A DNA stretch of 64,000 bases from Acidobacteriaceae bacterium (GTDB lineage Bacteria > Acidobacteriota > Terriglobia > Terriglobales > Acidobacteriaceae): positions 2,170,001 through 2,234,000 of the forward strand of contig JAPWKE010000003.1 of assembly GCA_028283655.1 (NCBI GenBank), given 5' to 3'. Within the stretch, counting starts at the first letter, position 1, and each line of letters opens with the position of its first letter. A model generated the notes under the pieces. It saw only the letters and a program-made list of their open reading frames with translations. It did not search any database and was not told the origin of the DNA. A program made the translations under genes and the position numbers. Below are positions 13,691-20,197 of this stretch, piece by piece.

Positions 13691-15118
13691 TTACGGCAAC
13701 TGCGCCAGATCAGGCTTCAACTGCGGCTCCAGCTTCAGGAACTCTTCTTCGACGATCTTGCCGAAGACAGCCTGCCCATACGGGTTCAGATGTGTGCGAT
13801 CGAGCTTCGGCTTTGCCTTGCCAGCGTTCTCGGCCTTCTCGTCCGGATGGCCCACAGCATTGAACGTGTCCGCATCCTCCTGCGTCCCCTTCGCCAGCAA
13901 CGCCTCGGAAGCCGTCAGCAGATCGAGATACGGCACGCCCTCTTCCGCCGCCACAGCCTTCGACGCATCGCCATACAAACGCAGATCGGCGTTCGAAGGC
14001 TTGCCGTCCTTGAACGTGCGCCGCGCCAGCGGCGAAAGCAGCACCGGCACCCCGCCCTGTGCCTTTACCTCGCGCACCATGCGGCGCATATTCTCGGCAA
14101 ACGTCGTCTGCGGGTCCGTGTGACGATCCGGCTTGGGCTTCTCATCGTTATGCCCGAACTGGATCAGGTAGTAGCTTCCTTTGGCCGCAACAGCTTTCGC
14201 CCACGCTCCTTCGTCGATAAAGCTCTTCGAGCTGCGCCCGTTCAGCGCAAGGTCGGTGCACTTCACCTGCACCACAAAGCGTGCGCAGAACCCTGGGCCC
14301 CACCCCCCTCCCGGAGCTGTCGTGGAATCGCCCACCAGCACGATGCTCGTGCCCTTCACCTGCTCCAGCGTCACCGGCGAACCCGCCGGAACACTCACAG
14401 CCTTCGGCTTCACATACGCAGCCAGCGCAGGCACAGCCTTCGCCATATCCGTCGCCACGATGCGTCCCATCACATACGATCCCGCAACGTTCCAGTGCGT
14501 CTTGTCCGGCATTGTCTTGCCGTCCTGAACCTTCGTGCGGCCCCACATCGCCTGCGCCTTCGGCCCGGTCTTCTCCAGCAGCGCTTCGCTGTCCGCGTGC
14601 AGATCAATCAACGGCACATGCATCTCTGCCGCAATCGTCTTCACCGCAGCGACGTGCGCATCCAGATCATCGTGAATCTTGCCGTCCGGCTGAAAGTACT
14701 CACGCGCAATGCTCGTCACCAACACAGGCTCAATGCCCGCCGCACGAGCTTCCGTAACGAACGCACGCATGTTCGCAATGTACTCATCAAGCGTTGTATT
14801 GCGCGGCATCGGCTTCTTCGGGTCCGTCACATCGTTGTGCCCAAGCTGCAGCAGCAGATAGTCGGGATGCGCCGCCAGCGCCCGGGCCCAGTACCCATCC
14901 GCACGATACGTCTTCGAACTCACCCCGCCCTTTGCCAGGTCCAGGCAATCAACGGCTGCAATCACGTTCGCGCAAAAACCCTCCGACCAGCCTGCATCGC
15001 GCGTCACGGTCGAATCCCCCGCCAGCACAATCCGTACCGGCTTCTGCGCCACAGCCGTTAAAGCCGAAACGCCCGCCGCCAACACCGCCAATCCAGCCGT
15101 CCACTGCAAAAACTTCAT
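13691..15118 (-). CDS. secreted tandem SGNH-hydrolase (rhamnogalacturonan acetylesterase-like)
   Basis: A 475-residue exported protein with two complete SGNH domains in one chain. Domain 1 (about 28-245): GDSTVT (nucleophile Ser), KGGVSSKT, QLGHND, and the catalytic DKTHWN. Domain 2 (about 260-470): GDSTTAPGGGWG, NGRSSKS, QFGHND, DRTHLN. This is the rhamnogalacturonan acetylesterase pattern (removal of acetyl groups from pectin). Both active sites look intact. The ATG at 15118 has AAGGAG at 7 bases and is preferred over a TTG two codons upstream. It fits a plant-polymer-degrading life style. Confidence 0.85.
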   Translation of the reverse strand: MKFLQWTAGLAVLAAGVSALTAVAQKPVRIVLAGDSTVTRDAGWSEGFCANVIAAVDCLDLAKGGVSSKTYRADGYWARALAAHPDYLLLQLGHNDVTDPKKPMPRNTTLDEYIANMRAFVTEARAAGIEPVLVTSIAREYFQPDGKIHDDLDAHVAAVKTIAAEMHVPLIDLHADSEALLEKTGPKAQAMWGRTKVQDGKTMPDKTHWNVAGSYVMGRIVATDMAKAVPALAAYVKPKAVSVPAGSPVTLEQVKGTSIVLVGDSTTAPGGGWGPGFCARFVVQVKCTDLALNGRSSKSFIDEGAWAKAVAAKGSYYLIQFGHNDEKPKPDRHTDPQTTFAENMRRMVREVKAQGGVPVLLSPLARRTFKDGKPSNADLRLYGDASKAVAAEEGVPYLDLLTASEALLAKGTQEDADTFNAVGHPDEKAENAGKAKPKLDRTHLNPYGQAVFGKIVEEEFLKLEPQLKPDLAQLP

Positions 15119-15214
15119 CGCCAAGCTCCTTGACCAGCCAGTCTAAGCGTCCACGCTGACCGCTGACCATTCCTGTCATGCAAATTTTCCTGCTACTTTT
15201 CGAAACCCCGCGCC

Positions 15215-15243
15215 TTGACACCGCATCTCATCGCCAGTAGGGT
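15215..15243 (+). promoter_or_regulatory. sigma-70-like promoter for the Cys-rich leader peptide
   Basis: TTGACA at 15215-15220, a 17-base spacer, then TAGGGT at 15238-15243. Transcription would start near 15250, only a few bases before the leader ATG at 15254, so the leader message would be almost leaderless. The -35 box is consensus, the -10 box weak. Confidence 0.45.
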
Positions 15244-15253
15244 TAATAACTGA

Positions 15254-15340
15254 ATGAAGCAGAATTACACCATCGTCGTGACCGCCTGTTGCATGTGTTG
15301 TTGCATGCCGCGCTGTTGCGCCGGTGTTTGTCTGCTCTAA
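15254..15340 (+). CDS. 28-residue cysteine-rich leader peptide
   Basis: ATG at 15254 opens a 28-codon frame that begins MKQNYTIVVTA and then reads CCMCCCMPRCC, AGVC and LL before TAA. Eight of its last 17 residues are Cys. It sits directly behind a predicted promoter and before an attenuator-like hairpin (15385-15413), a 47-codon frame and a YeiH-family transporter gene. The layout matches cysteine-responsive leader peptides: ribosome stalling at Cys codons when charged tRNA-Cys is scarce would change folding downstream. The coding assignment is by pattern; no homologue was checked. Confidence 0.55.
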   Translation: MKQNYTIVVTACCMCCCMPRCCAGVCLL

Positions 15341-15384
15341 GCGACGTCTCCTACCTCGATCGCTTACTTCCAGGCTCCCAAGCA

Positions 15385-15413
15385 CCCACGCAATGGCTCC
15401 CCGCCAGCGTGGG
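15385..15413 (+). promoter_or_regulatory. attenuator-like hairpin downstream of the Cys leader
   Basis: CCCACGC (15385-15391) pairs with GCGTGGG (15407-15413); inside, GGC (15395-15397) pairs with GCC (15403-15405); TTT follows. It lies about 45 bases after the leader stop and before the next gene, where an attenuator would be. The following T run is short, so termination strength is uncertain. Confidence 0.4.
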
Positions 15414-15490
15414 TTTCGTATTTACGGGCAGAAACCTGGACTCTTCACTACACAAGCTCAAGGCAGTACCGGTTTTCGGAGTCGCATCAC

Positions 15491-15634
15491 ATGTCACCTC
15501 GCATCCAGCCAAGCAAAGTAATCGCCCACGCACAGGCCCGCCTCGGTTTTAACGCCGACGCCGCCGCCATCGCGCTCGCGCTCGCACTTGCCGCTCTCAT
15601 TCGCCTCAATGTGATTCACCACATCGGCTGGTAA
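15491..15634 (+). CDS. 47-residue membrane microprotein in the yeiH leader region
   Basis: ATG at 15491 is preceded by GGAG at 9 bases. The product starts MSPRIQPSKV, then an Ala/Leu-rich transmembrane helix (about residues 23-40), and ends NVIHHIGW. It stops 21 bases before the GTG of the YeiH-family gene, so it is probably its operon partner. No family recognised. The codon choice in the helix matches the neighbouring genes. Confidence 0.5.
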   Translation: MSPRIQPSKVIAHAQARLGFNADAAAIALALALAALIRLNVIHHIGW

Positions 15635-15655
15635 CTGGAGCCGACGCTACTTACC

Positions 15656-16753
15656 GTGACCACCTCTTCGCCAAAATCTGCCGCCGACGCTGGCAGTCCA
15701 ACACAGCCCCCTGCCGGGACCCTGCTTTCTCTTCTGCCAGGCACCCTGCTGTTGTTTGGAATCGGATTTCTCGGCAAGCTGCTTGAGTCTCTCGGGACAA
15801 TTCTTCCCAAACGTTTCGGCATCCCCTTCCCTCACATCGAGTACGTTCTCTGGGCCATCATCGTCGGCCTCCTCTTCTCGAACATCTTCACCATCCCCAA
15901 GATCTTCCGTCCCGGCTTTGCCACCTACGAGCTCTGGCTGAAGCTCGGCATCGTGCTTATCGGCGCTCGCTTCGTACTCAGCGACCTGCTGCACATCGGC
16001 GGCCTCGCCATCGGCCTCGTCTTCGTAGAGCTTGCCCTTTCGCTCACAGTGATGACGCTGCTGGGCCGTATCTTCGGCCTCAACCCCAAGCTCACCTCGC
16101 TGCTCGCCATGGGCTCGTCCATCTGCGGCGTCACCGCCATCATGGCCGCACAGGGCGCCATCGAACCGGACGAAGAAGACACCTCCACCGCCATCGCTGC
16201 GATCCTCGCACTCGGCGCACTCGCACTCTTCACCTTCCCGGCCATCGGCCACATGCTCCACATGGGCCAGCAGAGCTACGGCATCTGGTCCGGCCTCGCA
16301 GTAGACAACACCGCCGAAGCCACCGTCACCGGTGCGCTCTACGGCGAAGAGGCCGGCAAGTACGCCATCCTCGCCAAGACCGCGCGCTCGGCCTTCATCG
16401 GCTTCGTCGTCCTCGGCTACGCCGTCTACTGGGCCTCCAAGGGACAAGCCCAGCGCGTAGACCGCAAGGCGCTCTTTCTCTGGCAGAAGTTTCCCAAGTT
16501 CATCCTCGGCTTCATGGCGCTCAGCGTCCTGGCCACCGTTGGCTTCTTCAGCAAAGGTCAGCTCAACTCGCTCGGCAACTTGTCGAAGTGGTTCTTCCTT
16601 CCCGCCTTCGCGGGTGTAGGCCTGCGCACCAACCTGCGCGACCTCGTCGATCAGGGCTGGCGTCCCATCGTCGTCGGCGTACTGGGCGAAATCTTCATCG
16701 CTCTGCTCACGCTCGGCCTCGTCATTCTTTCGTTTCACGGAGCAGCCCGATGA
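15656..16753 (+). CDS. YeiH/UPF0324-family putative sulfate (sulfur) exporter
   Basis: A 365-residue polytopic membrane protein of the UPF0324 family, with about ten transmembrane segments and the family signatures LWLKLGIVLIGARF, MGSSICGVTAIMA and the late KWFFLPAFAGVGLRTN. Members are annotated as putative sulfate exporters, though transport has been little tested. The start is GTG at 15656. The gene lies between two poly-Cys peptides, and its stop overlaps the second one (ATGA at 16750-16753), which supports a link with sulfur or cysteine supply. Confidence 0.85.
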   Translation: MTTSSPKSAADAGSPTQPPAGTLLSLLPGTLLLFGIGFLGKLLESLGTILPKRFGIPFPHIEYVLWAIIVGLLFSNIFTIPKIFRPGFATYELWLKLGIVLIGARFVLSDLLHIGGLAIGLVFVELALSLTVMTLLGRIFGLNPKLTSLLAMGSSICGVTAIMAAQGAIEPDEEDTSTAIAAILALGALALFTFPAIGHMLHMGQQSYGIWSGLAVDNTAEATVTGALYGEEAGKYAILAKTARSAFIGFVVLGYAVYWASKGQAQRVDRKALFLWQKFPKFILGFMALSVLATVGFFSKGQLNSLGNLSKWFFLPAFAGVGLRTNLRDLVDQGWRPIVVGVLGEIFIALLTLGLVILSFHGAAR

Positions 16754-16830
16754 CCCGGCCGCTCCTCCACGTATCCACCATGCTCTCGTCGTTCCTGCAC
16801 GAGCAGTGTTGTTGTTGCTGTCGTCGCTAA
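16750..16830 (+). CDS. 26-residue poly-cysteine leader peptide before the TonB-dependent receptor
   Basis: ATG at 16750 overlaps the stop of the YeiH-family gene (ATGA), as in translational coupling. The peptide starts MTRPLLHVST and ends EQCCCCCRR: five consecutive Cys codons (TGT TGT TGT TGC TGT) just before two Arg and the stop. Immediately after the stop is a small dyad (ACGCT, 16830-16834, with AGCGT, 16839-16843), and a second (TCTGCG, 16900-16905, with CGCAGA, 16910-16915) precedes the receptor gene. This is what a cysteine-sensing leader looks like; it could set expression of the receptor. Confidence 0.55.
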   Translation: MTRPLLHVSTMLSSFLHEQCCCCCRR

Positions 16831-16948
16831 CGCTCCTAAGCGTGCGAGGACCAACACCCCACTCGTTCTCTACCTAACACCCCCACTTTCATAAAGCGAT
16901 CTGCGAATACGCAGACGCGCATTCATCAGTACGTTTCAGGAGACCTCC

Positions 16949-19900
16949 ATGCCTTCCTTTACACGCCTTCGTGTGGCTACTTCCGCACTGCTCTTTACCG
17001 TGGCCACGGCATCAACCTTTGCTCAAGTTGTTGGCGGCACCATCTCCGGCGTCGTCACCGACCCCACCGGAGCCGTCATCCCTAACGCCCAGGTAACCGT
17101 CCACAACGACGACACCGGCTCGCAGCGCATACTCGCAGCCTCTGCCAACGGAGCCTTTACGGCCCCCTCGCTCACCGTGGGCCACTACACCATCAGCGTC
17201 GTCGCACCGGGCTTCGCGGACTTCCACCGCAAGGACAACATCACCGTCGGCCAAACGCTCGAGGTCAACCTCAAGCTCGCCATCGCCGGCTCTGAAACCG
17301 TGAACGTCAATGGCGACCTCACCGCCGCAGTCAACCTCTCCACCGAGCAGACCTCCGGTCTCGTCGACGCTCGCCAGGTAAAGGGCCTCCCCCTCAACGG
17401 TCGCTCCTACGATCAGCTCCTCACGCTCAACCCCGGCGTCGTGAACTACACCAACCAGCGCTCCGGCTCTACCGGTACTTCGAACTCCTCGGTCGGCAGC
17501 ATGTTCTCCATCTCCGGCCGTCGCCCGCAGGACAATCTCTTCCTGCTCAACGGCATCGAGTACACCGGAGCCTCGCTCATCAACACCACTCCCGGCGGCA
17601 CCAGCGGCCAGCTCCTCGGCATCGACGGCATCCACGAGTTCAACGTCGTCACCGACACTTACTCCGCCGCCTACGGCAAGCGCGACGGCGCGCAGATCTC
17701 CATCGTCACGCAGAACGGCACCAACCAGGTCCACGGCTCGGCCTACCTCTTCGAACGCAACAGCTTCCTCGACGCGCGCAATTACTTCGACAACGCTCGC
17801 ATCCCCGAGTTCCAACGCCACGTCTACGGCGGCTCGCTCGGCGGCCCCATCAAGAAGGACAAGCTCTTCCTCTTCGGCAACTACGAAGGCTATCGTCAGA
17901 ACCTCGGTGTCTCGCTACAAACTCTCGTTCCCGATAACAACGCCCGCAACGGCCTCATCCCGAACTCGACGACCGGCGCACTAACGCCCGTCACCGTCGC
18001 CCCGAACTCTGCGAAGCTGCTCAACCTCTGGCCCGTCGCCAACGGAGCAGAGGTCACACAGAACGGCGTCGCCACCGGCATCGCCAAGTGGACCGGCTCC
18101 GCCCCGCAGCGCATCCGCGAAGACTTCGGCACCACGCGCTTTGACTGGAACATCGGCCCGAAGGACACCTTCTACTCGGCCTACACCGTCGACGACTCCT
18201 ATGCCAACACCCCCAGCGGCAACCCCTACACCTACGTGCAGGAAACACTCCGCGAGCAGGTTCTGAGCGCGCAGGAACAGCACGTCTTCTCTCCCAACTT
18301 CCTCAACATCGCCCGCTTTGGCTACTCGCGCTCGAGCTTCTACTTCTATGGCTACGTCCCCGCCGAGCAACAGGCGCTCGCTCCCAGCGTCCGCACCGGC
18401 GTGCCAACCTACGCCATCGTCATCTCCGGCTCCACCGCTTCGAACGGAGCTTCCGCCATCACCGGCGCAGGCGCCAACGTCGGCTCAAACAACTCGATCG
18501 CTCGCAACCTCTTCACCTTCGACGATCACGTCTACTACACCATCGGCAAGCACACCATCCAGGGAGGCATCTGGCTCCAGCGCCTGCAGTCGAACGACAA
18601 CCTCGCGCAGAACCAGTACGGCCAGGCCTCCTTCGCCAGCCTGAGCACCTTCCTCACCGGCACCATCAAGACCTTCACCTACGCCCCCACCATCACGCCG
18701 CTCGGCTGGCGCGCTCTCTACCTCAACAGCTTCCTCGAAGACACCTGGCACATCACGCCTAACTTCGAAATCCGCGCTGGCATCCGTACGGAAACCTCCA
18801 GCGGCTGGACCGAGGCACAGAATCGCGCCACAGCCTACACCTTCACCAACAACGTCATCAGCACCAACCCCATCTCTGGTCTTAGCAATGCTCTGCTCGA
18901 CAACAAGGCGCTCCTGCTGCCAGAGCCTCGCGCAGGCTTTGCCTGGAACGTCTTCGGCACCGGCGTCACCAGCGTTACCGGCGGCGTAGGCTTCCACCAC
19001 ACGCTGCTGGACGCACTCGACTACCGCCTCGATCAGGCAGCACCCTACAACACTACCTACTCCTACTCCGCCTCCACGGTTGCCAATCCCGTCGCCGGTA
19101 CAGGACAGGTCTCGCCCTCCACCGTCGACAGCGGCATGGCCACGCCCGCGCTGCTCAGCTACACGCTCAAGGTCGAGCAGCAGCTCGCTCCTGCAACCTC
19201 TCTCTCGCTCGCCTACAGCGGTTCGCACAGCTATCACCAGATCATGAACGGCGACCTCAACGAACCCGCGTACACCATCGTCAACGGCCGCGTCTTCTAC
19301 CCCGCATCCGGTACCTCCACCAGCCCCGCTGCGCCCATCAAGGCCAACCCAAACGTCGCCAACACCACTTCGTGGTGGGCAGGAGCCTCAGGCAACTACA
19401 ACGCCTTCATCGCCGACCTCCACCAGAACCTTCGCCACGGTCTGCAGTACCGCGTGAACTACACCTGGTCGAAGAACCTCGACGACGGTTCGGCGTGGAA
19501 CACCTCGGTCTCCTCCAACACACCCGCGTTCGTCTCCGTGCCCCAGCTTCCGCATCTTGACTACGGTCGCGCGGCCACGGACCTCCGCCACATCTTCTCC
19601 GCAAACGCTACCTACGAACTCCCCTTCGGAGAGGGCAAAACCTTCCTCTCGCACACCAACGGTGCCGTCAGCCGCACCGTCTCGGGATGGTCACTGGCCA
19701 GCATCGTCAGCGCACTCAGCGGCTTCCCCTTCTCGCCACAGCTTGGCTACAACCCCACCGGCTCCGGTGATTCGCGCAACCCTGTTCGCCCCGACGTCAA
19801 CGCGGCCTTCAACGGCCAGCTCTACACCAAGGGCACAACCTCGCAGCGCGTCGCACAGTACTTCAACCCCTCAGCGTTCTCTGCTCCCGCGGCAGGCTAC

Positions 19901-20197
19901 GTCGGCAACGTGGGCCGCGACACCCTGTCGGGACCGAAGTACGCCAACTGGGATCTCTCCTTGTTGAAGGCCACGCAGATCGCAGGCGGCGTTCACGCCC
20001 AGTTCCGCGCGGAGTTCTTTAACGTCCTCAACCACACCAACCTGCAGCTTCCCAACACCGTCGTCTACACCGCCGGTCCCACGCAGGGAACACTCGCCAA
20101 CCAGACAGCGGTGGCAACTCTCGGCTCCCCCGGCGTCATCTCCGGCACGGCCAACACCAGCCGCCAGATTCAACTCGGCCTGAAGATCCTTTTCTAA
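16949..20197 (+). CDS. TonB-dependent receptor, Oar-like, with carboxypeptidase-regulatory-like N-terminal domain
   Basis: A 1,082-residue outer-membrane protein. Order: signal peptide (to about residue 25, cut near TFA-Q), a carboxypeptidase regulatory-like beta-sandwich (GGTISGVVTDPTGAVIPNA in two pieces, about 27-115), a TonB plug (QVKGLPLNGRSYDQL, then FSISGRRPQDN, about 140-250), then a large Tyr/Asn-rich barrel ending in the C-terminal LGLKILF. This architecture is very abundant in Acidobacteria and is usually tied to uptake of large or complexed nutrients. A CAGGAG site precedes the ATG. The poly-Cys peptide upstream suggests a sulfur-containing substrate, as inference only. Confidence 0.9.
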   Translation: MPSFTRLRVATSALLFTVATASTFAQVVGGTISGVVTDPTGAVIPNAQVTVHNDDTGSQRILAASANGAFTAPSLTVGHYTISVVAPGFADFHRKDNITVGQTLEVNLKLAIAGSETVNVNGDLTAAVNLSTEQTSGLVDARQVKGLPLNGRSYDQLLTLNPGVVNYTNQRSGSTGTSNSSVGSMFSISGRRPQDNLFLLNGIEYTGASLINTTPGGTSGQLLGIDGIHEFNVVTDTYSAAYGKRDGAQISIVTQNGTNQVHGSAYLFERNSFLDARNYFDNARIPEFQRHVYGGSLGGPIKKDKLFLFGNYEGYRQNLGVSLQTLVPDNNARNGLIPNSTTGALTPVTVAPNSAKLLNLWPVANGAEVTQNGVATGIAKWTGSAPQRIREDFGTTRFDWNIGPKDTFYSAYTVDDSYANTPSGNPYTYVQETLREQVLSAQEQHVFSPNFLNIARFGYSRSSFYFYGYVPAEQQALAPSVRTGVPTYAIVISGSTASNGASAITGAGANVGSNNSIARNLFTFDDHVYYTIGKHTIQGGIWLQRLQSNDNLAQNQYGQASFASLSTFLTGTIKTFTYAPTITPLGWRALYLNSFLEDTWHITPNFEIRAGIRTETSSGWTEAQNRATAYTFTNNVISTNPISGLSNALLDNKALLLPEPRAGFAWNVFGTGVTSVTGGVGFHHTLLDALDYRLDQAAPYNTTYSYSASTVANPVAGTGQVSPSTVDSGMATPALLSYTLKVEQQLAPATSLSLAYSGSHSYHQIMNGDLNEPAYTIVNGRVFYPASGTSTSPAAPIKANPNVANTTSWWAGASGNYNAFIADLHQNLRHGLQYRVNYTWSKNLDDGSAWNTSVSSNTPAFVSVPQLPHLDYGRAATDLRHIFSANATYELPFGEGKTFLSHTNGAVSRTVSGWSLASIVSALSGFPFSPQLGYNPTGSGDSRNPVRPDVNAAFNGQLYTKGTTSQRVAQYFNPSAFSAPAAGYVGNVGRDTLSGPKYANWDLSLLKATQIAGGVHAQFRAEFFNVLNHTNLQLPNTVVYTAGPTQGTLANQTAVATLGSPGVISGTANTSRQIQLGLKILF

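Follow-up and report, generated by a model that had tools for sequence, protein, structure and literature searches.

Sequence comparison points to a cysteine-codon regulator between a YeiH-like transporter gene and an Oar-like receptor gene in Acidobacteriaceae

The stretch of DNA analysed here, referred to as the window, comprises 64,000 nucleotides (nt) of an Acidobacteriaceae bacterium (assembly GCA_028283655.1, contig JAPWKE010000003.1, positions 2,170,001 to 2,234,000 of the forward strand), whose genome of 4.27 Mb is called the host genome below. Between a gene for a YeiH-like transporter and a gene for an Oar-like TonB-dependent receptor, the window holds a short open reading frame that starts on the transporter stop codon and ends in a run of cysteine codons. 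The question raised by this locus is whether such a frame is an accident of the sequence or a device that links the receptor to the supply of cysteine. Based on the comparison of related genomes, we consider that the short frame is probably a cysteine-codon-dependent regulator acting in cis on the receptor gene; this statement leaves general the way in which the receptor is controlled.

The initial annotation had described 26 codons, an ATGA overlap and five consecutive cysteines followed by two arginines and a stop, and our retranslation agrees with this description. As read and translated, the ATG at position 16750 shares bases with the transporter stop TGA (16751-16753), the cysteine codons at 16807-16821 are TGT TGT TGT TGC TGT, and the arginine codons occupy 16822-16827. 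The peptide has no NCBIfam match, and positions 15100-17100 of the window gave no match to a curated Rfam covariance model (T-box and others) up to an E-value of 1. It had also been argued that two poly-cysteine frames within 1.5 kb, this one and a leader peptide ahead of the transporter, were unlikely by chance. This argument is not decisive on its own: the codon pattern TGY TGY NNN TGY TGY occurs at 80 sites in the host genome on both strands (35 + 45, with 49 for a backward control), so that two occurrences in 1.5 kb are suggestive at most. Among the sites examined, 26 lay in frames bounded by stop codons and no longer than 90 codons, a criterion that omits the frame at 16750-16830; sites on contigs C4 and C5 were left out of this census, as was the pair C3:3100091-3100114, which is antisense within a receptor frame. 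The case for function must therefore come from comparison, since chance alone would not exclude an accidental frame, and conservation of sequence does.

Searches with the transporter protein covered 61 relatives and 250 genomes of the family (with loci for 30 of the 79 matches listed); those with the receptor covered 61 relatives together with a collection of named genomes, where the relatives comprise species of Granulicella and Bryocella and an Acidobacteriaceae bacterium. In 19 loci that we examined, the transporter gene is followed by the short frame and then by the receptor; ten of these belong to the genus or to a named Granulicella contig and nine to the genera g28, g31 and g134. Protein searches reached 18 of these linked loci, and the other one, in G205, was found solely through the hairpin pattern described below. 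In all 19, the short frame starts on the transporter stop, with ATGA in 16 cases, TAATG in two and TGATG in one. The frames range from 9 to 68 codons, and every one of them has two to five cysteines among its last eight codons (19/19), as in the peptides MIKLFTKMCSCCCRR, MTNLPTAPLATPRCRCRC, MISRRGSAESCCCCR and MNRRLLSSSNRCRCRQ, each followed by a stop. The start and the Cys-rich end are conserved, the middle is not, and N-terminal similarity is confined to near relatives. Comparison of these sequences thus documents the position, start, phase and tail of the element, and further its hairpin and the company of sulfur genes, which are described below.

As a background, we counted frames of related sequence that start with ATG and span 10-70 codons, a set that contains the signal itself: at least two cysteines in the last eight codons were found in 250 of 4680 frames (5.3%) and at least three in 47 of 4680 (1.0%). 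Frames that overlap a long frame through ATGA reached the level of two cysteines in 14 of 43 cases, and 11 of those 14 come from linked loci. No Cys-tail frame overlapped the transporter stop in any of 20 homologues lacking an adjacent receptor on the same strand. These controls were ten loci of the first sample (58-81% identity; the transporter frame of L021 is broken), L342 and nine homologues of 61-66% identity, with L343, which ends at a contig edge, and L350 left out. The closest to an exception was L011, where a frame 37 nt past the stop has two cysteines in its last eight codons. In the relatives examined the frame is kept and not broken, and C-runs exceed their background rate in the orthologue group of this receptor (19/19 against 5.3%). 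The coordinates of the frame and of the features around it are collected in Table 1.

Table 1. Features of the transporter-receptor locus, in positions of the window
Feature	Position	Strand	Description and basis
Promoter-like element	15215..15243	+	TTGACA-17-TAGGGT, 10 nt before the ATG of the first leader; by eye, weak
First Cys leader peptide	15254..15340	+	MKQNYTIVVTACCMCCCMPRCCAGVCLL, then stop; CC.CC type
Intrinsic-terminator hairpin	15384..15414	+	ACCCACGC...GCGTGGGT, then TTCGTATTT; strict terminator rules
Hydrophobic small protein	15491..15634	+	47 residues; between first leader and transporter
Transporter	15656..16753	+	PF03601 (YeiH-like, putative sulfate export family); Pfam E 2.5e-74
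Short Cys-tail frame	16750..16830	+	26 codons, encodes MTRPLLHVSTMLSSFLHEQCCCCCRR; stop TAA at 16828-16830
Proposed sensor codons	16807..16827	+	Cys-Cys-Cys-Cys-Cys-Arg-Arg; from sequence
RNA hairpin	16814..16855	+	GUUG [CU bulge] GUC (G.G) UCGC - loop with stop codon - GCGA G GAC CAAC
Candidate Rho-entry region	16831..16900	+	C-rich, G-poor; 28 C and 10 G in 70 nt
Second dyad	16900..16915	+	TCTGCG-AATA-CGCAGA, without T-run; sequence
Receptor Shine-Dalgarno-like motif	16937..16942	+	CAGGAG; sequence comparison of linked loci
Oar-like TonB-dependent receptor	16949..20197	+	CarboxypepD_reg, weak Plug, OMP_b-brl_4 barrel

The receptor is accompanied by Cys-rich frames away from the transporter as well. 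Among its orthologues of at least 63% identity, a Cys-rich short frame was found upstream in 14 of 14, nine of them beside the transporter and five standalone (G015, G025, G006, G011 and G014; for example, the leader TACCRCCVCRNAMTAASV followed by a stop). A terminator-type hairpin, such as ACCCACGC...GCGTGGGTTTTTT, follows the leader in all five standalone cases, with a weak T-run in G011. Four of the five are divergent from a cysD-cysN-cysH-TauE operon, whose genes were identified in G015 from Pfam and NCBIfam matches and in the other genomes by eye; on the opposite strand, the cysD side has a second Cys leader of its own, such as MVFSRTFANTSCCSCCCQACICGCACCR followed by a stop. The proposal that the two frames of the window share a cysteine-sensing scheme that couples transporter and receptor stands in part. 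Both frames belong to one cysteine/sulfur theme, because the first is a conserved leader, the second is kept in 19 of 19 linked loci, and standalone receptors lie beside sulfate-assimilation operons in four of five cases; the response to cysteine itself is the part that we infer.

At four of the loci examined (L178, L179, L180 and L182), the cysD operon and the receptor each have a Cys leader on their own strand, which gives a twin-attenuator intergenic region with terminator-like hairpins on both sides (on the cysD side by eye). The cysD operon of the host (L239, G000:C3:2503300-2508500, minus strand) showed no Cys-run leader in front of it; upstream lies a frame with two cysteines, MRRFEGITARCPRLVQAGC followed by a stop, as translated by eye.

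The cysteine codons of the short frame also take part in an RNA hairpin, whose 5' arm they build together with the Arg codons; the stop codon lies in the loop or at the loop edge. The two short dyads that had been reported before the receptor, ACGCT/AGCGT and TCTGCG/CGCAGA, are both present, the first of them (16830-16842) nested in the loop of this larger hairpin. A common fold was obtained in most of ten linked loci, consisting of GCUG, a two-base bulge, GUU, a G.G mismatch, UCGC, the loop, GCGA, G, AAC and CAGC. In a table of arms compiled by a scan that imposed the position of the G.G mismatch, 13 of the 19 linked loci show complete pairing in the core of the hairpin, and the 11 non-linked loci of that table, found by model or pattern, are paired by selection. 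Compensatory changes occur at three pairs: the host has U-A to C-G and C-G to U-A, and a C-G to U-A double change at another pair is shared by G016 and G082, members of two different genera. The z-score of the folding energy around the stop is -3.0 or lower in four of ten loci, with -3.76 at the host locus. A DNA operator, of which the arms would be an imperfect inverted repeat, was considered and rejected; the spacing between them (the loop length, across the arm table) varies from 4 to 22 bases, which favours RNA.

A covariance model was built from seven loci without the host and bog_445 sequences, since the alignment by MAFFT had put the host one codon off. The model then located the element correctly in these two left-out sequences (25.4 and 18.7 bits, respectively), and its best match in the host genome is 16814-16855 (E 0.007). 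Across 61 genomes it gave 31 matches up to an E-value of 1, namely the seven training loci, the host and 23 others, five of which combine Cys tail, stop and hairpin (L267, L274, L281, L284 and G005:C44, the same as L322). Searching for the exact hairpin arms gave matches in 148 of 300 family genomes, most of them evidently by chance. Ten hits with the stop in or next to the loop were picked among the matches listed, a choice that favours signal; they comprise seven CysO loci and three transporter-receptor loci, of which G158 and G075 were found again by protein search and G205 was not.

The CysO loci extend the element to a second kind of gene. In the host (G000:C3:2410278), the frame of a CysO-like carrier of the ThiS family continues past its di-glycine into the Cys tail SIAGGCCSLPAEGCCR and a stop. 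This gene lies between JAMM and ThiF in an operon of a PALP enzyme (cysteine-synthase-like), a JAB (JAMM) protease, CysO and a ThiF-rhodanese protein. The same Cys tail, stop and hairpin are present at the 3' end of CysO in the host and in other genomes, with ten such loci in the genus, and a further copy of the element, MVRLTPFQPAFRCCCR followed by a stop, precedes another PF25183 receptor in G005. By analogy, the JAB protease could trim the Cys tail from CysO. We lean towards the idea of a cysteine-codon regulon of the Acidobacteriaceae, in which a portable Cys-Cys-Arg-stop module, folded against GCGAGAAC, would have been grafted on the 3' end of the preceding gene (CysO, or a mini-frame on the transporter stop). 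Such a module would read cysteinyl-tRNA inside operons, and the stalling of ribosomes, in place of a repressor, would bring outer-membrane receptors, sulfate assimilation and CysO-dependent cysteine synthesis under joint control.

Cys-rich CysO tails without the hairpin were also seen in other genera (L372, L373 and L362, with GGSGRMADCACSCCCCR, ERACCCRG and GGSACCSCCPLL, respectively, each followed by a stop). The distribution of these tails suggests that they have been gained on CysO repeatedly.

As for the gap between the tail and the receptor gene, no intrinsic terminator was found in any of the 19 linked loci, with 130 nt examined in each. In 15 of the 19 linked loci, the 70 bases that follow the stop reach a C/G ratio of 1.9 or more, a level seen for 1 of 26 other host receptors, a comparison weakened by the slightly different position at which the control was measured (100 to 30 nt before the receptor start). 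The distance from the stop to the Shine-Dalgarno motif is 78-106 nt in nine of ten loci. We tentatively prefer termination by Rho as the output of the short-frame sensor, because a C>G stretch marks the Rho-dependent terminator in the CruR-bfrG system (PMC9426467).

In the mechanism that we infer for the short frame, covering its translation, stalling, the direction of the response and the role of Rho, ribosomes leaving the transporter gene would enter the short frame by coupling, re-initiating at the ATGA, and go on into its tail. With ample cysteinyl-tRNA, the ribosome would terminate fast and depart, the hairpin would close behind it, and the exposed C-rich untranslated stretch would allow transcription to stop before the receptor, probably via Rho. 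With scarce cysteinyl-tRNA, the ribosome would stall on the Cys codons and prevent the hairpin from closing; the transcript would then be shielded or take another fold, and the receptor would be made. The first peptide (15254) would act likewise on the whole operon through attenuation by leader and terminator. The receptor would in this way be switched on together with sulfur assimilation, presumably importing a sulfur-containing nutrient.

Several observations weigh against regulation of this kind. The 19 linked loci are related and do not represent 19 independent events, and several tails hold just two cysteines, some of them broken up by arginine. The hairpin is absent from six of the 19 linked loci and is thus not essential to the mechanism; in the other six of the ten loci folded, the energy z-score lies between -1.9 and +0.9; and covariation in the seven training sequences, with one double-change pair, is not above that of shuffles (84 of 500). 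Eighteen of the 23 other matches to the covariance model are without a Cys tail, and the strongest of them, in G057 (E 9.7e-5), lies within a gene. A sample of CysO loci found by protein and not chosen by pattern, with 24 scorable loci out of 30 after setting aside four fused frames and two that could not be placed (L371 and L381), showed a Cys tail (at least two cysteines in the last eight codons) in just five of 24 and the hairpin in two of 24. A stalled ribosome would sit upstream of the proposed Rho site, so the blocking of Rho lacks an explanation, and the annotation of YeiH-like proteins as an export family is harder to reconcile with import under starvation.

The sensor could also work through a different output. 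Stalling might unmask the ribosome-binding site of the receptor with no early stop of transcription, a translational attenuation of the type reported in mycobacteria for polycysteine frames, which would be a special case of the cis-regulator proposed above and which we regard as possible, if doubtful. The gaps free of intrinsic terminators and the overlap of the hairpin with the Cys codons are consistent with it, as is one paper (PMC13236596) by whose account translation attenuation governs the cysteine genes of Mycobacterium smegmatis. Against unmasking speak the consensus fold of ten sequences, which is the Cys-arm hairpin alone with no conserved pairing of CAGGAG (the host arm is one codon off there), and the distance between stop and Shine-Dalgarno motif given above. 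It is unlikely, on the other hand, that the hairpin itself is the functional part, for example as a protein-binding or processing site, with the Cys codons arising as a by-product of its GUUGUUGUCGC arm. The arms GUU-G-UCGC / GCGA-G-AAC are indeed nearly invariant in 13 linked loci, beyond the needs of pairing; however, the Cys codons are no mere by-product of the hairpin, because the six hairpin-less linked loci keep their Cys tails (such as SCCCCR or ACCTCCRRS before the stop). Moreover, the Cys leaders of standalone receptors differ in nucleotide sequence, and neither the reading phase nor the position of the stop at the loop has been lost.

The closest precedent for an upstream frame of this kind is CruR, a Cys-containing frame before the TonB-dependent transporter gene bfrG of Bordetella, with Rho termination and a C>G bubble (PMC9426467), and a C-rich stretch exists at the host locus as well. 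Sensing of a metal such as copper by the nascent peptide through its cysteines is nevertheless quite improbable here, given frames of such varied length with N-termini that are unalike and no RAPP end, and given neighbours in other genomes that are sulfate-assimilation and cysteine-synthesis genes. We attach very little weight to the view that the frame is a non-functional Cys-rich accident, or a case of plain translational coupling in which the tail residues are irrelevant. The 80 CCxCC codon patterns of the host genome, whatever their cause, lend it some room, but start, phase and tail are kept in all 19 linked loci (genera g1, g28, g31 and g134 and one named Granulicella contig), and the overlapping frame is absent from all 20 receptor-less homologues.

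Upstream of the short frame, the transporter scored 250.4 bits to PF03601 (cut-off 24.5), and its score to the narrower YeiH model of NCBIfam, TIGR00698, is below the curated cut-off (108.8 against 232.6 bits). The receptor downstream matched PF25183 (E 2e-166) and PF13620 (E 7.3e-19), both above cut-off, with a Plug domain under its cut-off. A Cys-rich leader precedes the transporter in 15 of 20 loci of a first set and in 10 of 20 of a further set; in the latter, the ten leaderless loci are transporter homologues of 61-66% identity, nine of them without a receptor in the 1.5-kb flank. Under strict rules, a terminator was found behind 10 of the 15 transporter leaders, nine of one type and one (L025) with a different hairpin, and compensatory variants occur in these terminators (ACCCGCGC/GCGCGGGT and ACCCAAGC/GCTTGGGT). 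Judged by their sequences, the first leader and its terminator are of ordinary attenuator anatomy. The leader may have a near-leaderless start, if the promoter-like element picked out by eye is correct; a consensus promoter scan reported no promoter at 15215..15243. The small protein between leader and transporter found a tblastn match in 12 of 20 wide loci, the host locus counted, and no match in Pfam or NCBIfam.

We compared the locus with systems already described. The peptide at 15254-15340, the leaders of standalone receptors and the cysD leaders share the anatomy of classical transcription attenuators, whereas the frame at 16750 differs from these in having no intrinsic terminator behind it (0/19). 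With cysteine-responsive leader attenuators, the linked loci have in common a short frame with a Cys cluster close upstream (19/19) and an association with sulfur or cysteine genes (cysD/cysN/cysH/TauE beside four of five standalone receptors, and the PALP-JAB-ThiS-ThiF operon). Pseudomonas makes outer-membrane receptors for sulfate esters under sulfur starvation, and the likeness to these is a functional analogy alone.

Polycysteine leaderless short frames of mycobacteria are reportedly the subject of work by Canestrari (2020). They are also described by Shell 2015 (PMC4633059), and the features shared with them are a short translated frame, a Cys cluster near the stop, a position before sulfur or cysteine genes and several loci per genome. 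Unlike the mycobacterial frames, those described here belong to another phylum and lie within an operon, on a transporter stop and before an outer-membrane receptor; in most of them the Cys codons form an arm of a recurrent hairpin; and the 16750 frame, which overlaps the stop of the preceding gene, does not have a leaderless start. The mycobacterial frames reportedly have a structure that hides the downstream ribosome-binding site (PMC13236596); the consensus fold of ten linked loci showed no conserved pairing of the Shine-Dalgarno motif. Seliverstov 2005 (PMC1262725) lists candidate Cys leader peptides without terminators in Actinobacteria and suggests Rho. The linked frames resemble these leaders in Cys runs near the stop and in the lack of an intrinsic terminator, and differ in that 13 of the 19 conserve a hairpin involving the Cys codons. 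CruR, which controls bfrG, senses copper through CXXC and needs the arrest motif RAPP (PMC9426467), resembles the linked frames in its position before a TonB-dependent transporter gene and in the C>G stretch, and differs in its RAPP end. In the literature covered, largely papers outside subscription, cysteine-directed attenuation was found in Actinobacteria only. Relative to this known attenuation by cysteine leaders of Actinobacteria, the position, the hairpin, the phylum and the receptor target appear new. The result is a nameable set of cysteine-leader loci outside Actinobacteria with sequence signatures that can be searched for.

Two such searches were made with short patterns. Screening 61 genomes for exact copies of the short tail TGYTGYTGYCGNCGNTRR was abandoned, as it gave mostly chance matches and the pattern also admits TGG. 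The CCMCC pattern is present in 81 of 299 class genomes; among 30 fetched loci, seven (L113, L114 and L118-L122) were leader-like as judged by eye, and the rest resemble random frames. These seven precede TauE-like, sulfurtransferase-like or cysD-like genes.

The initial annotation had further proposed that short frames ending in C-runs would be enriched before Oar-like receptors in general. Such receptors are abundant in the host genome, with 57 PF25183 matches, a number in which some genes are counted in pieces. We fetched the 30 best of these and examined 29, with L050 dropped for its short upstream region; a Cys-rich frame within 400 nt was found under the filter for 2 of 29, namely the 16750 frame and a doubtful one, MRNVRFPASCTVWCLVC. 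In other genomes, more distant receptors (at most 46% identity) had a Cys-rich frame in none of 16 cases, and we reject the enrichment as a general rule. Oar-like receptors are mostly without a known substrate, and the leaders offer a handle on them: a receptor with a Cys leader that adjoins a sulfatase, together with the orthologues beside sulfate-assimilation genes in four other genomes, gives candidates for the import of organic sulfur, to judge from their gene neighbourhoods.

Other Cys-rich frames were seen in the host genome. One receptor leader, missed by the filter and spotted by eye, belongs to the PF25183 receptor at G000:C1:106000-122000 (L039/L385); the upstream short frame ends in MTTMHCCCALSLDIERLMLCCA and a stop, the terminator-like hairpin CCCGGCATATAGCCGGGTTTTGTTTT lies upstream of the receptor, and a sulfatase gene (PF00884) lies directly downstream. 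At G000:C3:2597000-2604500 (L333, minus strand), the frame MVFLCQNCCSCCCTPSL, closed by a stop, separates a PF25183 receptor from a sulfatase and lies some 110 nt ahead of the sulfatase; a second receptor and a second sulfatase come next. Finally, a gene for a 1-Cys peroxiredoxin at G000:C3:2571000-2575500 (L334, minus strand) is preceded by MKQTVTNSPLMCCRCCCCGPVRV and a stop and by a strong intrinsic terminator (GACCCACCC...GGGTGGGTTTT), and from this arrangement it is likely to be another Cys attenuator of the host genome.

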